From Leptospirillum ferrooxidans C2-3 (GTDB lineage Bacteria; Nitrospirota; Leptospirillia; Leptospirillales; Leptospirillaceae), in assembly GCF_000284315.1 (NCBI RefSeq), contig NC_017094.1, positions 341,486 through 405,485 of the forward strand: a DNA stretch of 64,000 nucleotides, given 5' to 3'. The translations under genes were made by a program, and so were the position numbers. Shown here piece after piece: positions 1,459-14,571 of this stretch (within the stretch, counting starts at the first letter, position 1; each line of letters opens with the position of its first letter). The notes beneath the pieces were generated by a model. That model had not been told where the DNA came from and did not search any database. It saw only the letters and a list, made by a program, of their open reading frames with translations.

Positions 1459-3030
1459 ATGGCAAGAAAAGGCAATCAAAAACTTGACAGTTCCCCCCTC
1501 GGTCTCGAAACCAAGCTTTGGCAAGCCGCCGACAAGCTCCGGAACAACATGGACGCCGCCGAATACAAGCATGTCGTCCTGGGGCTCCTCTTCCTGAAAT
1601 ACGTCTCCGACTCCTTCGAGGAACACCACGCCAAGCTGACGAGTGAAATCTCCCAGGGAGCCAACCCCGAAGATCCGGACGAGTACCGGGCGGACAATGT
1701 GTTCTGGGTTCCCAAAGAGGCCCGCTGGTCGGTTCTCCAGTCCAACGCCAAGCGTCCCGAGATCGGCAAGGTGATCGACGACGCCATGGTGGCAATCGAA
1801 CGGGACAACAAGTCGTTGAAAGCCGTTCTTCCCAAAGACTTTGCCCGTCCGGGTCTCGACAAGCAACGTCTGGGAGAACTGATTGACCTGGTGGGAACGA
1901 TCGGCCTGGGAGACAAGGAACACCGTTCCCGGGACATGCTGGGACGGGTCTATGAATATTTCCTCTCCCGGTTTGCCAGTGCCGAAGGAAAGAAGGGGGG
2001 ACAGTTCTACACTCCCCGCTCCGTGGTCCGGGTTCTGGTGGAAATGCTGGCCCCCTACAAGGGGCGGGTCTACGATCCCTGCTGTGGATCCGGCGGCATG
2101 TTCGTTCAATCCGAGAAATTCATTGAGGTCCATGGAGGCCGGATCGGGGATATCAGTATCTACGGTCAGGAATCGAACCACACGACCTGGAAACTGGCCG
2201 CCATGAATCTGGCTATTCGGGGCATTGCCGCCAATCTTGGAAAAGAGAACGCCGACAGTTTCCACCGGGATCTCCACCCCGACCTGAAGGCCGACTATAT
2301 TCTGGCCAATCCTCCGTTCAATTCGAGCGACTGGGGAGGCGACCGGCTCCGGGAAGACAAACGCTGGGTTTATGGAGTTCCTCCCGGGGGAAACGCTAAC
2401 TTCGGCTGGGTCCAGCACTTCATATCCCACCTGGCCCCCAATGGGGTGGCGGGGTTCGTTCTGGCGAATGGCTCCCTGTCTTCGAATCAGAGCGGGGAAG
2501 GAGAAATCCGCAAAAATATCGTCGAGGCCGACGTGGTGGATTGCATTGTCGCCATGCCGGGACAGCTCTTCTATTCGACTCAAATTCCGGTCTCCCTCTG
2601 GTTTGTTTCAAGAAACAAGAAAAACGGCAAAGGCCAGGAAGGAAAACCCCTGCGGGACCGGAGCGGAGAAATTCTCTTCATTGACGCGAGAAAGCTCGGA
2701 TTCATGGCCGACCGGACCCACCGGGACCTCTCCGACGAGGATATCGCGAAGATCGCCGGAACCTACCACCACTGGCGGGGTGACGGGGCCGGACAGTACG
2801 AGAACATTCCCGGGTTTTGCAAGAAAGCAACGTTGGAAGAGGTTCGGACCCACGGGCATGTCTTGACCCCAGGAAGGTATGTCGGGGCGGAAGAGGTCGA
2901 GGGCGACGGGGAACCCTTCGAGGAGAAAATGAAGCGGCTCACGGCCCAACTGGACGAACAGTTCAAGGAGAGTGCTCGCCTGGAAGCGGAAATCAGAAGT
3001 AATCTGTCGAAGCTGGGCTATGGACTGTAA
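1459..3030 (+). CDS. hsdM: Type I restriction-modification methyltransferase subunit HsdM
   Basis: This 523-residue protein is the modification subunit of a type I R-M system. Residues 10-140 form the N-terminal helical HsdM domain ([20 protein letters not shown]). The SAM-binding motif I reads [10 protein letters not shown] near residue 206, and the adenine-methylase catalytic motif IV reads NPPF near residue 285, so it is an N6-adenine methyltransferase. Length is normal for HsdM. It would work with the HsdS at 5896-7509 and HsdR at 9553-12621. The usual neighbour hsdS is displaced by about 2.9 kb of toxin-antitoxin and DUF2971 genes. The start is preceded by GAGG. The stop overlaps the next gene by 11 bases. 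Confidence 0.95.
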
Positions 3031-3520
3031 GAATCTTCATTTCAGCCAGCAGGCCATTCGAGGCATGTTCGAGAAGGGTATATCTGAGGAAGAAGTCAGG
3101 ACTGCAATTGCTTCAGGAATGACGGCTGCCGAGTACCCTGACGACCACCTCTATCCCAGCCGTCTTGTATTGGCTACCGGGAGCCGATCGTTCCTTGTCG
3201 TTATTGCCGAAGACACGACCACTGAAACGTGCCTTATCGTTACGGTCTATACTCTTGATCTTGACCTTGAGAACAAGGAGACAATAATGAACTGCGTGAT
3301 CTGCAAAACAGGAGAAATGGCTCCCGGGTATGTTACCGTAACGCTTGCACGCAGCGGGACCGTCGTCATTGTCAAGGAGGTTCCAGGGGACGTCTGTCAG
3401 GATTGTGGAGAGTACTATCTTGACGAACCCGTGGCTGAAAAGATTTACGCACAGGCGGAAGAGGCTGTGAAACGGAATGCCGAGGTGGAGATTCTCAGAT
3501 ATGTGGCTTATCAATCATGA
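3020..3520 (+). CDS. DUF4258 toxin fused to YgiT-type zinc-finger antitoxin
   Basis: The 166-residue frame has two parts that are normally separate neighbouring genes. Residues 1-88 match DUF4258 ([39 protein letters not shown]), a RelE-superfamily-like mRNA interferase candidate. Residues 90-166 match the YgiT/MqsA-type zinc finger (CVICKTGEM ... [18 protein letters not shown]), with two CxxC pairs that would hold Zn. There is no stop between them. However, a perfect AAGGAG sits six bases before an internal ATG at 3287 that starts exactly at the antitoxin domain. The most likely reading is that both a fused protein and free antitoxin (77 residues) are made. ATG 3020 overlaps the hsdM stop. 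Confidence 0.75.
3275..3289 (+). promoter_or_regulatory. Internal ribosome binding site and start for free antitoxin
   Basis: AAGGAG at 3275-3280 is followed after six bases by ATG 3287-3289, in frame with the DUF4258-YgiT open frame. The residues after it, MNCVICK, are the usual N-terminus of stand-alone YgiT-type antitoxins. This strongly suggests independent translation of the second domain. Confidence 0.6.
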
Positions 3521-3770
3521 AGTGCCGGGTCTGTGGTGAAACACTGGAGCCCCAGATCACCGAACTGCCCTTCAATCTTTCGGCCAAAACAATTGTCCTT
3601 TTGAAGGATCTTCCTGTGCTCCGGTGCGAGAAATGCGGAGAGTACGCGACCCTGGATCCGGTCATGGAAAAATCGATTCCTTGTTGGCAAATAGAGTTCA
3701 GGCGATTCCGTTGGAAATCGTCCAATTTGAGGCAAGAATGTTATTGAAGTATTATCAACTGGTGATATAG
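3517..3770 (+). pseudogene. Second YgiT-type zinc-finger antitoxin, frameshifted
   Basis: The start ATG overlaps the previous stop (ATGA). The frame gives [19 protein letters not shown] and LRCEKCGEY, the two CxxC pairs of the YgiT family. After ATGGAAAAA (A run at 3667-3671) the annotated frame turns into an atypical tail ending at 3747, while the next frame continues naturally as IDSLLANRVQAIPLEIVQFE to a stop at 3768-3770, which fits the helical tail of this family. A one-base indel in the A run explains this. It may be real decay or a sequencing error. Confidence 0.6.
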
Positions 3771-4134
3771 TTGTTGCCGAGAGAGCACGGGGTCGACACT
3801 CTTCTTGATCTGCACGGCCAAATCATAGTTCAAAACAATGGGTACTGGATCAAGATTGAGGCATGGCAGGTCACTCCGACTTCCGCGATTCCTCATGGGA
3901 TTCGTTATTCTTTGACACTGCATGACTTCTTATGGAAAGCGGATCATGGGGTACGACAATGCCCATGCTATCAAGTTACCGAAGAAGTTCAAATATGCGG
4001 GACGGATTGTGACCTATGATCATACGCACCGTCACAGGTCTGACAAGGGTGTTCCCTATGAGTTTCAGAATGCCCACCAATTGTTGACGGATTTTTTTGA
4101 AAGTGTTGATCGGATCTTGCAGGAGGTTCAATAG
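3771..4134 (+). pseudogene. TumE-type toxin, frameshifted
   Basis: Two frames must be joined to give a TumE (DUF6516-like) protein: first DLHGQIIVQNNGYWIKIEAW and IRYSLTLHD, then from about 3922 SYGKRIMGYDNAHAIK, YDHTHRH and QLLTDFFE. The family hallmark is the GYDN...HRH...L..DF pattern next to a helix-turn-helix antitoxin, which is found immediately downstream. One extra base in GACTTCTT near 3918-3925 breaks the frame. No good ATG is seen for the N-terminus; TTG at 3771 or 3774 is possible. The toxin is probably inactive in this sequence. Confidence 0.6.
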
Positions 4135-4136
4135 AC

Positions 4137-4487
4137 ATGAAGGTTCTTCGGATCGGAATCATGCCTCAGGAGAAGATTCGGGAAAGAATGCTGTCAATCG
4201 CCAAGGGAGAGTATCGACCAGGTCCTGGAGAGCCGAAAATATGGTTTTCCTCAATCAAGTCTCTTGCCGAAGTGCTGAGCGACGAGAATCGGGCTCTTCT
4301 CAAGGTTATTGCCGAGGTCAAGCCACAATCGATCTCCGATCTGGCCGTGGTCACGGGACGCAAGCCAAGCAATCTCTCTCGCACCCTCAAAACCATGTCG
4401 AATTATGGCCTTGTCGAGTTGCGACGCGAGAACCGGCATGTAAGACCGATTGTCCAGACAACCAGGTTCCAAATCCTGACGGCATAA
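4137..4487 (+). CDS. TumA-type helix-turn-helix antitoxin
   Basis: This 116-residue protein carries a winged helix-turn-helix at about residues 45-105 (DENRALLKVIAEVKPQSIS, VTGRKPSNLSRTLKTMSNYGLVEL), MarR/ArsR-like in pattern. Small HTH proteins of this kind follow TumE-type toxins and act as the antitoxin and autorepressor. AGGAGG lies ten bases before the ATG and overlaps the end of the TumE frame, so the two would be co-translated. Here the antitoxin is intact while its toxin is broken. Confidence 0.7.
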   Translation: MKVLRIGIMPQEKIRERMLSIAKGEYRPGPGEPKIWFSSIKSLAEVLSDENRALLKVIAEVKPQSISDLAVVTGRKPSNLSRTLKTMSNYGLVELRRENRHVRPIVQTTRFQILTA

Positions 4488-4560
4488 TGTCAAGTGGCTT
4501 TCTCTTTCCTGAGTAGCGCTAGTCAGGGTCTCTTTTAAGCTTCTTCAGGGGAGGTGAATC

Positions 4561-5511
4561 GTGGACCCGAATATGAAAGAGTGTGCTTCCCAAGGAAACA
4601 TTTATCGTTATTTTTCCTTTAATGAACAAGATCGGTGCGATTTGGAGAAGTTTGCGACATGGGCGGCGGCGGATCCACCCCAAAAAGAGACTCTCCTAAA
4701 CTATCTGAATCTGATCGGCCATAAGAAAAATCATAGGCTGGTCTATCTTTTGACAAATAAAAAGCTTTATCGCACGACTCCTTCTGGCTTTAACGATCCC
4801 TACGATTGTCTCGTCGAATTTGACCCAAAAGTTAAAGATACCGATCTATTAAAATGGTTTCGCTTGTACCATGGGAATCAAGCATTCGATTCAGAGGAGT
4901 GGCAGAACTGTAGGGGAAAACTCGGGGGCCGGGCAGAGGAATACCTCACAAACAATAATTCTATTGATCCTGAACATAGGCAACCGATCATTGATCTCCT
5001 CAAGTTCACCCTCCAAAAACTTGTGAATCGTTCTCGTGTTGTCTGTTTTTCAGAGAAAGGGAACAATCTTCTCATGTGGGCTCATTACGCTGGTAAACAT
5101 GAAGGATATTGCCTTAAGTTTTGTTCTGAAATCTTGAAAAGCAAGAACAAATTGATCGGCTTCTACCCTATAGAATATTCAGATTCGCGCCCGTTAATCA
5201 ACCTAAGCGGAAATGAAATTAATAACATGAAATTGGCACAAAAGATTCTTCTTTCCAAAAGTAACCATTGGAAATATGAAGAAGAAGTTCGCCTTATTTG
5301 GAACAATCGAGAAGAATATTTTGATTTCCAGGTGGAATCCCTTACAGGAATTGTTTTTGGTGCAAAAATGCCGCTAGAGTGTCAAAAAGGGTTTCAATTC
5401 TTGGTTGAAACTTTGAATGAATCAGACACCGGTATAAAGATTGAATGTGCCGAGCTTGACCCTAGAAAATATGAAGTGAACTTACGAGCTTTCAACAAGG
5501 AATCGTCATGA
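4561..5511 (+). CDS. DUF2971 domain protein
   Basis: The 316-residue protein contains the DUF2971 pattern: LYRTTPSGFNDPYDC near residues 76-90, VCFSEKGNNLLMWAHYAGKHEG near 160-182, and HWKYEEEVRLIW near 237-250. The biochemical role of this family is not settled; members are common beside phage-defence genes. The start is GTG at 4561 with GGGGAGG just upstream; an ATG four codons later is the alternative. Its stop overlaps the start of the HepT-like gene (ATGA), so it is translationally coupled to the HepT and MntA-HsdS genes. The coding sequence is visibly more AT-rich than hsdM and hsdR, which suggests a separate origin. Confidence 0.75.
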   Translation: MDPNMKECASQGNIYRYFSFNEQDRCDLEKFATWAAADPPQKETLLNYLNLIGHKKNHRLVYLLTNKKLYRTTPSGFNDPYDCLVEFDPKVKDTDLLKWFRLYHGNQAFDSEEWQNCRGKLGGRAEEYLTNNNSIDPEHRQPIIDLLKFTLQKLVNRSRVVCFSEKGNNLLMWAHYAGKHEGYCLKFCSEILKSKNKLIGFYPIEYSDSRPLINLSGNEINNMKLAQKILLSKSNHWKYEEEVRLIWNNREEYFDFQVESLTGIVFGAKMPLECQKGFQFLVETLNESDTGIKIECAELDPRKYEVNLRAFNKESS

Positions 5512-5906
5512 ACTCCCTAAATCTTGAGCCTTTGGAAAAAGCTATTGAACAATTGAGATCGGGGATAAAGCAGAGCCTTGCCGATCCAGACAACGAGCTT
5601 CTCCGGGACGGTGTAATCCAGCGGTTTGAATACACCATGGATCTCTCCTGGAAAATGATCCAGCGTTATCTCAAGCATATCGCCCAAGTGGAGGAAAGCG
5701 CGATTCGGACCAAAAAGGATCTGTTCCGGGAAGCTGGTCGGCTTCAAATCATAATGGACCCCGAAGCATGGCTCGAACACTATGAGGCCCGCAATGAAAC
5801 CTCGCACACATACGATTCCCAAACGGCAGAAGCGGTGTTTGTCCGAGCCGAATTATTCCTTCCCGACGCAATCAGCCTACTGGAAACCTTAAGACATGCC
5901 ACTTGA
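5508..5906 (+). CDS. HepT-like HEPN toxin (HI0074 family)
   Basis: This 132-residue, mostly helical protein belongs to the HI0074/nucleotidyltransferase-substrate-binding family of HEPN proteins. Residues 95-102 read RNETSHTY, an exact RX4HXY motif. In characterised HepT toxins Arg and His form the RNase centre, and the Tyr is AMPylated by the partner MntA to silence the toxin. The gene overlaps the DUF2971 stop by four bases and the following gene by 11 bases. That following gene starts with an MntA domain, so a complete HepT/MntA pair is present, but with the antitoxin joined to HsdS. All motif residues are intact, so this toxin is probably functional, unlike several others in the island. 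Confidence 0.8.
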   Translation: MNSLNLEPLEKAIEQLRSGIKQSLADPDNELLRDGVIQRFEYTMDLSWKMIQRYLKHIAQVEESAIRTKKDLFREAGRLQIIMDPEAWLEHYEARNETSHTYDSQTAEAVFVRAELFLPDAISLLETLRHAT

Positions 5907-7509
5907 CATACGTCCAGACCACCTGGAGATTGTCCTGGAAATCCTGAACCGGGTGATTCCTGGCCGGGAAGTATGGGCATTTGGGTCTCGTGCAACATGG
6001 ACCGCTCGGGATACCTCGGACCTCGATCTGGCCGTGATTGGAGAGACCTCCCTGGATTTCAAAACGTTAGCCGCCTTGAGGGACGCTTTCAGCGAATCCA
6101 ATATCCCTTACAAAGTGGACGTGGTGGATTGGGCAAACATTAGTGAAACGTTCAGGGAGATTATCCGTAAAGATAAGGTCGTGATCCAAAAAAGGATTGT
6201 CAATGGGGCTGGTTACAAAAATCGATATGAGGGGCTTCAAGGCAGCAACCCTTTAGAGGAATGGATCTCTTGTAAACTCTGTGAGGCTTGCCGTTCAATT
6301 GATTACGGACTCACTGCTTCTGCGGTCGACACCCCTGTTGGCCCTCGATTCTTACGGATTACAGATATCGTGAGTGGGGAGGTTAACTGGAAATCTGTTC
6401 CCTATGTTTCGGTCAATGAATGCTCGGCGCATAAATATCGGCTCGATAGTGGCGATATTGTGATTGCTCGAACGGGGGCCTCAACAGGTGCAAGTGCGTA
6501 CATTAATAATCCGCCGCCTGCGGTATTTGCTTCTTATCTTGTACGTCTTAAGGCCAAGCCTGAGTTTGATAGCCGGTTTCTTGCATACTATCTCAGGAGT
6601 AATGACTTTTGGTCATTTATTCGTGGCGTTCTTGGTGATAAATCGGCCCAACCAAATGCAAGTGCATGGACCATGACGCAAGCACCGCTCAAAGCACCAA
6701 GAGACAAAAATATTCAACGCGCCATAGCCCACATTCTCGGCACCCTCGACGACAAGATCGAACTCAACCGTCGCATGAACGAAACTCTGGAAGCAATGGC
6801 CCAAGCGCTCTTCAAGTCCTGGTTCGTGGACTTCGATCCTGTCAGAGCCAAGGTGGAAGGAAGACCCACGGGACTGCCCAAGGAGATCGAAGACTTGTTC
6901 CCGGATAGTTTTGAGGATTCGGAACTGGGGGAGATTCCAAGGGGGTGGAAATTAACTACTCTGAGTTCTGTGATAAATATTTTTGATTCAAAACGTGTTC
7001 CATTATCAAGTAATGAGCGAGCCAAACATAAAGGTAAATACCCTTATTATGGTGCAACTGGAATTCTTGATTACGTTGACCACTATCTGTTTGAGGGGGT
7101 CCATATTTTGGTTGGAGAAGACGGCTCAGTGATCAACAATAAGGATCAGACTCCAGTAACCCAATATGTGTGGGGAAAGTTTTGGGTAAGCAATCATGCT
7201 CATGTATTGACTGGTAAACAAGGTGTTTCAAGCGAACACCTTCTGTTGTTTTTGCAACAAGCAGACATTGGTTCTTTCGTGACTGGGGCAGTTCAGCCAA
7301 AACTCAATCAATCCAACCTTTGCCAGATTCCATTCGTAATGTCACCTATGTTGCTTGCTGAGGCTTTTGGGAAGATAGTTTCACGATTTTATTCATTTGT
7401 TCGAAGAAATTCAGAAGAGGTACTTTCTTTAACACAACTGCGCGATACGCTTCTCCCCAAACTCCTCTCTGGAGAAATTCGAGTTTCAAACGCCGGAAGA
7501 TTTTTTTGA
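5896..7509 (+). CDS. hsdS: MntA nucleotidyltransferase fused to HsdS specificity subunit
   Basis: Residues 1-100 are a minimal nucleotidyltransferase of the MntA type: GS at 30-31, ten residues, then DLD at 42-44, matching GSX10DXD. From about residue 110 the protein is a type I specificity subunit: first target-recognition domain about 115-270, central conserved helix about 278-330 (ILGTLDDKIELNRRMNETLE, ALFKSWFVDFDPV), second recognition domain about 345-500 (GEIPRGWK start), and a terminal helix (LRDTLLPKLLSGEI). No in-frame ATG, GTG or TTG with a ribosome site lies at the junction, so HsdS appears to depend on the MntA start. Both recognition domains look AT-rich compared with the conserved helix, as expected for exchanged domains. 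HsdS would guide HsdM and HsdR; the MntA part should AMPylate HepT encoded just upstream. Confidence 0.85.
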   Translation: MPLDIRPDHLEIVLEILNRVIPGREVWAFGSRATWTARDTSDLDLAVIGETSLDFKTLAALRDAFSESNIPYKVDVVDWANISETFREIIRKDKVVIQKRIVNGAGYKNRYEGLQGSNPLEEWISCKLCEACRSIDYGLTASAVDTPVGPRFLRITDIVSGEVNWKSVPYVSVNECSAHKYRLDSGDIVIARTGASTGASAYINNPPPAVFASYLVRLKAKPEFDSRFLAYYLRSNDFWSFIRGVLGDKSAQPNASAWTMTQAPLKAPRDKNIQRAIAHILGTLDDKIELNRRMNETLEAMAQALFKSWFVDFDPVRAKVEGRPTGLPKEIEDLFPDSFEDSELGEIPRGWKLTTLSSVINIFDSKRVPLSSNERAKHKGKYPYYGATGILDYVDHYLFEGVHILVGEDGSVINNKDQTPVTQYVWGKFWVSNHAHVLTGKQGVSSEHLLLFLQQADIGSFVTGAVQPKLNQSNLCQIPFVMSPMLLAEAFGKIVSRFYSFVRRNSEEVLSLTQLRDTLLPKLLSGEIRVSNAGRFF

Positions 7510-7571: not shown

Positions 7572-8222
7572 TTGGAAACACCATACAAAGAACCTGAATT
7601 CAATAAGAGTGCGTTTAATTGCCCATTTTGTGGTGCTTATGCCCAATTTAAGTGGGTGCAGTTAGCGATTGGGTACCAAGGGGGGTACCGAGAAGAAATT
7701 GGTGGTCATGCTGCTGCCAAATGTTCTCATTGTGATAAATGGACTCTTTGGGCAAGTGGAGAAGGATATGAAGTCACTCTTGTATTTCCAAAAAAACTCA
7801 TTAGTCCGCTTCCTTCGCCAGATATGCCAGCAGAATGTCTTGAAGATTTTGGAGAGGCCAGAAGGGTCTGTCCGGACTCTCCGAGGTCAGCGGCAGCATT
7901 ATTACGTCTTATAGTTGGAAAACTATGTAAGTCCTTTGGGGAATCCGGCGAAAATATCAATGAAGACATTAAAAGGCTGGTGAAAAATGGATTAGACCCT
8001 GGAATACAAAAAGCTCTTGATATCGTTCGAGTGACTGGGAATCATGCAATTCACCCAGGAGAAATGAATGTTGAGGATAATCCTGAGGTAGCCACCAAAT
8101 TATTTCACTTGGTCAATATGATTGTGCAAGAAATGATTACTAAACCGAATGAATTGAAAGAATTGTATGAGAAACTCCCCGAAAGAGACCGTAATAACAT
8201 ACAAAAAAGGGATAATAAGTAG
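7572..8222 (+). CDS. DUF4145 domain protein with N-terminal zinc ribbon
   Basis: The 216-residue protein opens with CPFCG and, 40 residues later, CSHCDKW, a likely zinc ribbon. The remainder is helical and matches DUF4145 (RSAAALLRLIVGKLC, VTGNHAIHPGEMNVEDNPEVATKLFHLVN). DUF4145 proteins often sit inside type I restriction operons, but their role is unknown; they may modulate restriction or DNA binding. The start is TTG at 7572 with AAGGAGG five bases before it. It follows hsdS by about 60 bases. Base composition is AT-rich, like the other cargo genes. No function is claimed beyond the family. Confidence 0.7.
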   Translation: METPYKEPEFNKSAFNCPFCGAYAQFKWVQLAIGYQGGYREEIGGHAAAKCSHCDKWTLWASGEGYEVTLVFPKKLISPLPSPDMPAECLEDFGEARRVCPDSPRSAAALLRLIVGKLCKSFGESGENINEDIKRLVKNGLDPGIQKALDIVRVTGNHAIHPGEMNVEDNPEVATKLFHLVNMIVQEMITKPNELKELYEKLPERDRNNIQKRDNK

Positions 8223-8514: not shown

Positions 8515-8533
8515 TAAATGAATGGAGACCGAT

Positions 8534-8758
8534 ATGGCGAATAGTACCATGATCCATGTTCGCATTGACGAACGAATCAAGACGGAAGCCACGGAAACGC
8601 TGTCGGCCATGGGATTGTCTGAATCCGACGCGGTGCGCGTGTTCCTGTTGCGTATCATTGCCGAAAGGCAACTAGCGTTCGAGCTAAAGGTGCCCAACGC
8701 CACCACCCGTCGAGCCACGCAAGAAGCAGACGAGATTGTTCGGACAAAAGGTGCCTGA
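8534..8758 (+). CDS. RelB/DinJ-family antitoxin
   Basis: The 74-residue product (MANSTMIHVRIDERIKTEA, LSAMGLSESDAVRVFLLRIIAE) is a ribbon-helix-helix RelB/DinJ antitoxin: a short beta strand for operator DNA followed by two helices, then a toxin-binding tail. ATG 8534 has GGAG six bases upstream and is preferred over the ATG at 8522, which lies in the duplicated target of the upstream element. No intact RelE toxin follows; only a short open stretch (MTKFFQPIALSDTIFM, 8767-8817) and then a broken HigB-like gene are seen. It is likely an orphan antitoxin. Confidence 0.75.
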   Translation: MANSTMIHVRIDERIKTEATETLSAMGLSESDAVRVFLLRIIAERQLAFELKVPNATTRRATQEADEIVRTKGA

Positions 8759-8813
8759 AGGGAGCCATGACCAAGTTCTTTCAACCCATAGCACTTAGTG
8801 ATACAATCTTTAT

Positions 8814-9202
8814 GTGAAACGCATACTCCTGCTTCGGACGTTCGCGCGCTGGAAAAAAACGGGTTGTCGGACGGGGCTCTCGCTAAGGCTGTAGCCGAAA
8901 TGGAGCAGGGGTTGATCGACGCGGATCTTGGCGGATACGTTTTCAAAAAGCGGGTGGCTTTTCCGGGACTGTGAAAACGCAGTGGCGTCCGGGTGATTGT
9001 GGCGACCAAAAAAGTTGACCGCTGGTTCTTCCTGTACGGATTTGGAAAAAACGAGCGAAACAATATCAGCGACAAGGAACTGGAAATCTTTCAGGAAATG
9101 GCCGTGGATCTTCTCAAGCTTAATGACCGGCAAGTGGACTTGGCCCTTTCCTCGGGAGAATTTGTGGAGGTGATTAATGAGACCAAAGAAAATCACCAAT
9201 AG
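8814..9202 (+). pseudogene. HigB/RelE-like toxin with two lesions
   Basis: Joined frames resemble the RelE/HigB toxin family: KRILLLRTFARWKK, then GLSDGALAKAVAEMEQGLID, DLGGYVFKKRVAFPG, then SGVRVIVATKKVDRWFFLYGFGKNE. Two changes break it: a frame change at the seven-A run near 8855-8862, and an in-frame TGA near 8972 where the family usually has a GxGK loop. The final part (8993-9202) is an open frame but lacks the N-terminal half. GTG at 8814 is the probable original start, with a TACAAT -10 candidate at 8802-8807 and only a weak -35. The toxin is expected to be inactive. Confidence 0.6.
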
Positions 9203-9497
9203 AATCGCAAGCGAAATGAAGGATACGGCGTCGGGATTGCACAGGATCGGGCTGATCGACAAGCGGCGAATGAACGAGTTGGAGGCGTTGACAACCCCCA
9301 GTATTTCCGAAATGACTCCCGAAAAGATCAAATCGTTGCGGGAAAAGGAACATGTCAGCCAAGCCGTGTTTGCGTCAGTGCTGAACACCAGTCTTTCGAC
9401 CGTGCAGAAATGGGAGATCGGAGAAAAACGCCCAAGCGGTCCCTCCCTGAAGCTGTTGAGTCTTGTCGAGAGAAAGGGGCTTGCGGCAGTCTTATGA
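9177..9497 (+). CDS. HigA-type XRE-family antitoxin
   Basis: The 106-residue protein contains a lambda-repressor-like HTH at about residues 50-100 (EKIKSLREKEHVSQAVFASVL, STVQKWEIGEKRPSGPSLKLL), typical for HigA2-type antitoxins encoded after their toxin. The ATG overlaps the end of the HigB frame and has GGAGG seven bases upstream. HigA proteins bind the toxin and repress the operon. As with TumA, the antitoxin is intact although its toxin is broken. It is 55 bases upstream of hsdR and could influence its expression. Confidence 0.75.
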   Translation: MRPKKITNRIASEMKDTASGLHRIGLIDKRRMNELEALTTPSISEMTPEKIKSLREKEHVSQAVFASVLNTSLSTVQKWEIGEKRPSGPSLKLLSLVERKGLAAVL

Positions 9498-13344: not shown

Positions 13345-14571
13345 ATGGACATTGAATTCCACAACGACCACAACGTTTATATCCTTGGAGCTGGCTTCTC
13401 CTATGAGGCGGGATACCCTCTTGTCCGGAACTTCATGGACAAAATGAAAGAGGCCGCAAGTTGGCAAAAAGATCACTCCCAAGAAACGAAAGAAATAGAA
13501 GCCGTTCTGAAGTTTCGACTCGAAGCTGCTGCCGCGGCATATCGTATACAGTTTGACCCAGAAAACATAGAAGATCTGTTCAGCTTGAGTGCTGCCAAAG
13601 GAGGTTCCGACGAGACGACAAACCGCAATGTGATCATTGCAATTGCTGAAACACTGGAGTATTGCCGAAACAAAAAAGTTGATAGAGAAGTGATTTTTTT
13701 TGGTGCTCCTAACCCTCTACCAAAGGGATTTTCCCTGGACAATCTAGAAAATCCAGCAAATCTCACAATAGATAAGTTCAAATTCTATGTGGGACTTATG
13801 TCCGGTGTATGGGGAGAGACCCCTTATAAGGACAATACGTTCATAACATTCAACTATGATCTTTTGCTGGAAGAAGCGCTTCAAGAATGGGCAATACCGT
13901 TCCGGTATGACGGATTGCATGGATATGAGATTCCAGAGCTGCCAAACTTTGACGACTCTGCGAGGAGCATTCAAGAAAATGAAGAGGAAGAGAATGTTGT
14001 ATCTATCCTCAAACTTCATGGGTCCGTGAATTGGGCATTGACAGGATTATCGCCAAACAGCCCTATCAAGAAATACATAGGGATCAAGGGTGTGGTTAAG
14101 GTCTATGGAGATTTTATAAAAAAAGAAATGCTAGGTTCTCAAGCCCTTCTGCTGGCGCCCCCAGTCTGGGACAAGGGAACCGCCAAGGTAGGACACCCTT
14201 TGGTGGGTGTCTGGTCGAATGCGATCAAAAAGCTTCAAACGGCGACACGGATAATCGTCATAGGGTATTCACTGCCCTTGGCAGACGCACATTTCAGATA
14301 TCTCATGGCGGCTGGATTGCAAAACAATATTTCCTTAAGAGAAATTGTTTTCGTCAATCCTGCATTAAAAGAAGGCGATTCAGATAAAGAGGCTTTAGAA
14401 TCAAGGATATTTAGCGTTTTCCGTAAAGATCTCAAAGAAAAAGGAATCTTAAAACTTCTCCCCTACACTATAGAGCAGTTTCTACTTTCTTTCGAAGACG
14501 CCAGGGCAGTATTGGGTAGGGAGGTGGGAGTTAGACGTGGAATCAGAGTCCTCTCAAAACCAGGATTTTGA
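13345..14571 (+). CDS. SIR2-family protein, probable NAD-consuming defence effector
   Basis: The 408-residue protein has the SIR2_2 pattern: NVYILGAGFS with GAG at 15-17 (NAD phosphate loop), FNYD with Asn170 and Asp172, LHGSVNW with catalytic His225, and VIGYSLPLADAHF from about residue 305. No zinc-binding Cys quartet is seen, which separates it from classical sirtuin deacetylases. Bacterial SIR2_2 proteins in defence systems such as Thoeris and DSR deplete NAD after infection, so this role is inferred here. GAAGGAG lies about 11 bases before the ATG and inside the preceding gene, coupling it to the membrane protein. AT-rich cargo gene. Confidence 0.8.
   Translation: MDIEFHNDHNVYILGAGFSYEAGYPLVRNFMDKMKEAASWQKDHSQETKEIEAVLKFRLEAAAAAYRIQFDPENIEDLFSLSAAKGGSDETTNRNVIIAIAETLEYCRNKKVDREVIFFGAPNPLPKGFSLDNLENPANLTIDKFKFYVGLMSGVWGETPYKDNTFITFNYDLLLEEALQEWAIPFRYDGLHGYEIPELPNFDDSARSIQENEEEENVVSILKLHGSVNWALTGLSPNSPIKKYIGIKGVVKVYGDFIKKEMLGSQALLLAPPVWDKGTAKVGHPLVGVWSNAIKKLQTATRIIVIGYSLPLADAHFRYLMAAGLQNNISLREIVFVNPALKEGDSDKEALESRIFSVFRKDLKEKGILKLLPYTIEQFLLSFEDARAVLGREVGVRRGIRVLSKPGF

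Follow-up and report, generated by a model that had tools for sequence, protein, structure and literature searches.

A 64,000-nt stretch of the Leptospirillum ferrooxidans C2-3 genome (GCF_000284315.1, contig NC_017094.1, positions 341,486-405,485; this whole stretch is referred to as the window, and coordinates are those of the window unless a locus is named) contains a type I restriction-modification (R-M) locus in which the specificity subunit, HsdS, begins with a minimal nucleotidyltransferase (MNT) antitoxin domain and lies directly behind the gene for its putative partner, a HepT-type HEPN RNase toxin. The original prediction, drawn from the letters of the window, was that HsdS itself carries the antitoxin domain, and the single 537-aa frame and the recurrence of the architecture both bear this out. 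That the fusion is found in at least seven phyla suggests that a defense enzyme and a back-up growth-arrest toxin have been functionally wired together.

The fused gene is one frame, free of stop codons from MNT through HsdS. Its N-terminal part (residues 3-100) matches HI0073 (PDB 1no5, E = 2e-26) and the Polbeta family PF18765 (E = 5e-13), and within the first 100 residues the anticipated GSX10DXD motif is present (GS30-31-x10-D42-L-D44), together with a third aspartate, D75; G30, S31, D42, D44, and D75 are invariant in the 35 fusions compared. The domain had been called MntA; it is a nucleotidyltransferase with intact catalytic residues, but it scores below the NCBIfam MntA equivalog cut-off (43.1 against 60 bits) and, being HI0073-like and fused, is not filed as an MntA equivalog. 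The full HsdS that was expected to follow in frame is there, residues 122-536 spanning positions 4-441 of the 446 in the Specificity_I model PDLC03089 (E = 3.6e-99), nearly end to end. As had been claimed, the junction lacks a start codon with a ribosome site: there is no in-frame ATG, GTG, or TTG between residues 97 and 158, and the sole start candidate nearby, a GTG at 6181 (residue 96), has no properly spaced Shine-Dalgarno sequence. We therefore rejected a separate HsdS made from an internal start in the window, as no start with a spaced Shine-Dalgarno lies between MNT and the first recognition domain.

AlphaFold2 (AF2) models were built solely from sequences fetched in this analysis. In the model of the fusion (mean predicted local distance difference test score, pLDDT, 87.6), a confidently predicted MNT and a two-lobed, complete HsdS fold independently of one another and are joined by a disordered linker of ~20 residues (103-120, pLDDT ~42). 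When compared using Foldseek, the MNT model matches HI0073 (1no5) with a template modeling (TM) score of 0.96 on the target, a root mean square deviation of 0.8 Å and 54% identity, and the Legionella MNT antitoxin with TM scores of 0.84-0.88; the HsdS part matches the HsdS structures 1yf2, 1ydx, and 5ybb.

The upstream gene encodes a protein that matches PF08780 (E = 7e-38, 129.8 bits against a Pfam cut-off of 31.8) and TIGR01987 (HI0074; 90.1 against 55.8 bits), and hence its family is HI0074/PF08780 rather than DUF86. The exact RX4HXY motif originally reported for it is R95-x4-H100-T-Y102, and these three residues are invariant or more than 90% conserved among 53 homologues. Q38 and E41 are both conserved in the homologue alignment and appear to be the counterparts of the metal-binding Q and E reported for the Legionella HEPN toxin (PMC11586414). 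The AF2 model of HepT (pLDDT 94.7) is closest in Foldseek ranking to the Legionella toxin, including its AMPylated form (TM 0.83-0.86), followed by HI0074 and then Shewanella HepT. The Legionella MNT AMPylates its toxin at Y105 (PMC11586414), and by alignment Y105 and Y102 of the window HepT belong to the same RX4HXY motif. The hepT and MNT-HsdS genes lie on the same strand with the toxin gene first and overlap by 11 nt, consistent with a single transcription unit, and overlap or close spacing is seen in relatives too. The ATG of hepT in turn overlaps the stop codon of an upstream DUF2971 gene, to which HepT is therefore probably translationally coupled; the DUF2971 protein (4561-5511) matches the PADLOC candidate PDC-S31 (E = 2e-47).

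To establish how far this architecture extends, we searched the phylum of the window, a class sample, the Magnetococcia, and plasmids, and scanned 84,980 species genomes using an MNT alignment, from which the best 80 loci were taken. Every MNT found was classified by its own frame and its neighbors. The similarity threshold and the restriction to the best 80 loci favor MNTs close to that of the window, and most sequences in the scan alignment were fused MNTs, though fused and free forms interleave on the tree described below; many of the relatives are metagenome-assembled. This yielded 58 distinct MNT-HsdS fusions, 55 of them with HepT immediately 5', in Nitrospirota, Pseudomonadota, Chloroflexota, Gemmatimonadota, Rhodothermota, Planctomycetota, and Bipolaricaulota, and in isolates that include Sulfuricella sp. 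T08, Simplicispira psychrophila DSM 11588, and Zymomonas mobilis ATCC 10988. The usual gene order is hsdM-hepT-[mnt:hsdS]-hsdR. Of the 50 fused loci measured, 46 have HsdM upstream and 33 have HsdR downstream, and several of the remainder stop at contig edges. GSx10DxD is present in all 58 fusions, and Rx4HxY in 49 of 51 HepT neighbors in the main set. In samples not selected by architecture, fusions were found in 11 of 296 Nitrospirota genomes, in 6 of the 321 genomes sampled from a second class (one of them the seed), and in 10 of 48 Magnetococcia, including one whose HsdS is truncated.

Relatives in which the two domains are always separate genes, named at the outset as a refutation of the proposed coupling, are not what the searches returned: only seven hepT-mnt pairs stand directly before hsdS without being fused to it (L041, L042, L107, L121, L017, L171, and L207, a few of which adjoin HsdS fragments), against 58 embedded pairs that are fused. 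MNT-HsdS is thus a widespread, recurrent architecture, and chance read-through is excluded. A sequencing error, such as a frameshift or indel, a faulty assembly, or a chance joining of frames is practically out of the question as well, because the L. ferrooxidans C2-3 genome is one complete 2.56 Mb contig and because 57 further fusions occur in other genomes, in independent assemblies that include isolates.

Among the classified loci, HsdM is the fusion partner in one case and HsdR never. The HsdM case (L051, refetched as L229; Magnetococcales, 3193-6879) reads hepT1-mnt1:hsdM followed by hepT2-mnt2:(truncated)hsdS, so that HsdM and HsdS both bear an antitoxin domain and each has a separate toxin gene to go with it. 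Other variants are L063 (3034-3857), where two tandem HepT genes, the first without and the second with RX4HXY, precede one MNT-HsdS, and L112 (8498-8983), where the HepT beside the fused MNT has Asp in place of the motif Tyr (RARTSHTD) and a second hepT-mnt pair precedes hsdM. No MNT match was found in the phage collection, and a full-fusion scan of viral contigs returned HsdS-only relatives.

On a tree of concatenated HepT and MNT (138 rows), the fused label requires 30 changes, with at least 18 of them on starred (strongly supported) branches, compared to 42.5 changes for shuffled labels. Fusion and separation have thus taken place many times, with gain indistinguishable from loss, and because the two forms are intermixed on the tree, one ancient fusion was discarded as the simplest explanation. 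When fused pairs were compared with free pairs closely related to them, DNA similarity was in most cases limited to a hepT-mnt cassette of ~700-760 bp. Pairwise distances of MNT and HepT are correlated (rho 0.67, and 0.67 as a partial correlation on HsdM; p = 0.001), whereas the correlations are near nil for MNT-HsdM (-0.03), HepT-HsdM (-0.05), and MNT-HsdS (0.11); the cassette has therefore followed a history of its own and entered many unrelated R-M systems, and MNT has remained matched to HepT after joining HsdS. Where saturation allows, simple Nei-Gojobori estimates of omega (dN/dS) on these short domains are mostly 0.07-0.16 for both MNT and HepT, indicating purifying selection; for MNT in pairs that have HepT they are mostly 0.08-0.16. 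In several pairs with constrained MNT, HsdS identity is only 33-37%, and recognition domains are thus swapped behind a constant antitoxin.

HEPN RNases of the HepT class are neutralized by an MNT that AMPylates the motif tyrosine (PMC7641770; PMC11586414), and a mechanism can be proposed along these lines. A HepT + MNT cassette, a type VII-like toxin-antitoxin (TA) module of the HI0074/HI0073 class, would have been taken up into a type I R-M operon, where the antitoxin came to form the N-terminal domain of HsdS, to which a flexible linker of ~20 residues tethers it. The MNT domain would AMPylate Tyr102 of HepT and/or bind HepT, so that new HepT is disarmed for as long as MNT-HsdS is produced from the overlapping gene. 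Should MNT-HsdS be lost or under-supplied, whether through degradation, mutation, shut-down, or sabotage by an invader, HepT would accumulate in its unmodified form, cleave RNA, and stop growth, and so serve as a back-up tied to the modification complex. AMPylation, HepT toxicity, and any phage trigger are here inferred from the Legionella and Shewanella pairs and from PrrC-EcoprrI. We consider it likely that the fused MNT neutralizes HepT, and the comparative sequence data support a covalent antitoxin-R-M link. It is plausible that inhibition of HsdS would free HepT, and the hypothesis of a coupling, which has comparative support, is likewise plausible. That an R-M-linked back-up or arrest is the role under selection is close to evenly balanced, perhaps slightly to the unfavorable side, and the whole, MNT-HepT as a covalent back-up embedded in R-M, is our best explanation with about an even chance of being right. 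More tentatively still, type I R-M complexes in several phyla might act as RNase antitoxins, with the AMPylating enzyme borne by HsdS or, rarely, HsdM, and their loss or sabotage during phage infection might lead to RNA cleavage and arrest, a covalent counterpart of PrrC-EcoprrI with many origins; we would put this somewhat below even.

Several observations weigh against a back-up of this kind. As AMPylation is covalent, blocking MNT would free only newly made HepT, with existing AMP-HepT remaining inactive, and depletion or imbalance is therefore a likelier trigger than inhibition unless a de-AMPylating phosphodiesterase acts. With MNT on a disordered linker, there is no structural reason for a DNA mimic on the M2S core to block it, and the modeled flexible tether offers no evident route by which MNT might sense the state of HsdS, DNA, or an anti-restriction protein. 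Free HepT-MNT pairs interleave with fused ones on the tree, which shows that the TA pair itself can do without fusion. In-frame starts preceded by a Shine-Dalgarno sequence occur near the junction in 26 of 53 fused genes, the window not among them; such motifs are often present because conserved Lys-Asp codons spell AAGGA, and some free HsdS may be made in those 26 relatives. Finally, three fusions (L126, L127, and L226) have no detectable HepT neighbor and yet keep their MNT residues. In L126 and L127, a DUF4258/YgiT pair sits in HepT's place, directly before MNT-HsdS. The HepT-less genomes G258 and G146 each yielded a single PF08780 copy elsewhere, accompanied by a separate MNT. The toxin can thus be lost while the antitoxin domain stays, and only two HepT matches lack an MNT within 600 nt; this fits a TA relation.

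The role of the pair might also be one of addiction only, with an antitoxin that is inseparable from hsdS stabilizing the R-M operon against loss or shut-down and no phage-specific trigger. The TA pair does lie between hsdM and hsdR, it is fused to the modification side (HsdS, once HsdM) and never to HsdR, and it is found on plasmids too. However, HepT-MNT has remained intact where R-M or HsdS decayed. At L199 (genome G100, of the window's family) an HsdM fragment alone remains nearby, and HsdS and HsdR were looked for near the pair and not found; at L092 and L101, HsdS is absent and both HsdM and HsdR are disrupted; and at L051 the first recognition domain of HsdS is lost, with both MNT and HepT intact. 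The cassette therefore does not strictly protect HsdS, and the earlier suggestion that it makes the R-M locus addictive is only half true, as in these four loci HsdS or the whole R-M system decayed and HepT-MNT survived. In addition, post-segregational killing is weak under AMPylation, since HepT made earlier keeps its modification. Addiction alone is accordingly a rather unlikely account.

Less likely again is that an ordinary mobile HepT-MNT inserts before hsdS and the loss of the mnt stop codon is simply harmless, with no functional coupling. The confinement of fused/free DNA similarity mostly to the cassette, the interleaving of the two forms, and the disorder of the linker would all suit such a tolerated fusion, but a fused:adjacent ratio of 58:7 is hard to reach if both states are equally fit, neutral stop loss predicts that adjacent forms dominate, and the fusion has been repeated many times across phyla. 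HI0073/HI0074 were originally described as a two-protein nucleotidyltransferase, and the three HepT-less fusions retain their catalytic residues (with an omega of 0.24 in one pair), both of which could favor an MNT that acts on the R-M complex itself, either regulating it by nucleotidylation or with HepT as its substrate-binding subunit, and has no antitoxin role. We hold this to be very improbable: the RNase residues of HepT are conserved, unlike those of MNT-HEPN domestications (PMC3710099), MNT co-varies with HepT and hardly with HsdM or HsdS, and the HepT-less cases in one genus look recent.

The R-M locus around the fusion (Table 1) has a complete type I gene set, comprising HsdM, an HsdS with two recognition domains, and an HsdR with translocase and nuclease domains, all on the plus strand between 1459 and 12621; it is apparently intact, with other small genes interspersed between hsdM and hsdR.

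Table 1. Principal features of the type I R-M locus and of the fused gene in the window.
Feature	Position	Strand	Evidence
HsdM, type I methyltransferase subunit, 523 aa	1459..3030	+	MTase_I 780 bits; N6_Mtase E = 2e-106; HsdM_N
HepT-type HEPN RNase toxin (predicted), HI0074/PF08780 family, 132 aa	5508..5906	+	TIGR01987, PF08780
MNT-HsdS fusion protein, 537 aa	5896..7509	+	single open frame; AF2 pLDDT 87.6
MNT antitoxin domain, aa 1-100	5896..6195	+	HI0073 1no5 E = 2e-26
Flexible linker, aa 103-120	6202..6255	+	AF2 pLDDT <50
Complete HsdS, two target-recognition domains and two long helices, aa 122-537	6259..7509	+	PDLC03089; PDB matches
HsdR, type I restriction/translocase subunit, 1022 aa	9553..12621	+	TIGR00348 627.8 bits; full-length REase_I model

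Further defense and TA genes surround the fusion. Between hsdM and the HepT region, DUF4258 and a YgiT/MqsA-type zinc-finger antitoxin share one open frame (2972-3520), which is followed by a second YgiT-type finger (3517-3747). The gene directly after the fusion (7572-8222) encodes a homologue of PD-T7-4 (E = 3e-80) whose DUF4145 HEPN domain carries R-x4-H, making it a second HEPN protein within the R-M locus. Remains of further TA modules lie between HsdS and HsdR (8522-9497): an orphan RelB antitoxin (8522-8758), a RelE-type toxin frame broken by an in-frame stop, both pieces of which match PF06296, and an HTH antitoxin (9177-9497). The R-M locus is flanked by an Mrr-type restriction endonuclease (669-1364) and a SIR2-domain protein (13345-14571), which is consistent with a defense island. 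A calcineurin-like phosphoesterase frame, assigned from its sequence alone, occupies 2-913 on the minus strand.

HEPN-MNT pairs are among the most abundant TA modules, and their role is unsettled; the fusion offers a physiological setting for them. If true, the coupling would be a direct physical link between restriction-modification and toxin-antitoxin defense, of a kind otherwise detailed for PrrC-EcoprrI. It would also mean that some annotations reading 'restriction endonuclease subunit S' hide an antitoxin, which matters for the annotation of defense islands, and that hsdS knock-outs are affected, as the deletion may free a toxin.

The MNT-HsdS architecture is already in a defense database, unremarked: the first 100 positions of the PADLOC Specificity_I model PDLC03138 match the MNT domain of the window, and the model is labeled merely as a type I specificity subunit, with neither a link to HepT nor a function stated. 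In the open-license literature, to which our search was confined, no description of an MNT-HsdS fusion was found, which is weak evidence of absence. Two Acetobacter plasmid operons (L041 and L042) have the same families in the same order, hsdM-hepT-mnt-hsdS-hsdR, although there mnt and hsdS are not joined: a gap of 10 nt lies between the two genes in L041, and in L042 they overlap by 8 nt.

The HI0074/HI0073 and Legionella pneumophila HEPN-MNT pairs (type VII TA; PDB 1jog, 1no5, 8xdj, and 8xeh; PMC11586414) belong to the same HepT and MNT families and folds as the pair in the window, and share with it RX4HXY, GSX10DXD, and a short MNT that ends before the alpha4 helix; what differs is that the MNT of the window is the N-terminal domain of HsdS and that the pair resides inside a type I R-M locus. 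Type VII TA order is commonly reported as MNT-first, whereas in the window HepT comes first. In HepT-MntA of Shewanella oneidensis and Aphanizomenon flos-aquae (PMC7641770; PMC4621449), a HEPN RNase is neutralized by an adenylyltransferase at the motif tyrosine, and the same is predicted for the window, although those toxins represent another HEPN subfamily and their MNT is free and has a long alpha4 helix. A parallel in logic is PrrC, an anticodon nuclease of the HEPN kind that is encoded in a type IC hsd locus, held by EcoprrI, and released by Stp of phage T4 (PMC3710099; PMC12707154). In both, a HEPN RNase within an hsd locus is checked by type I R-M and forms a second line of defense, a control that in the window is predicted. 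However, PrrC includes an ABC-ATPase and is restrained through complex formation, while the window HepT is a small, stand-alone HEPN protein (132 aa, with PF08780 as its sole domain and no ABC-ATPase of the PrrC type, and thus outside the PrrC proteins), and its control is predicted to operate through an enzyme domain fused to HsdS.

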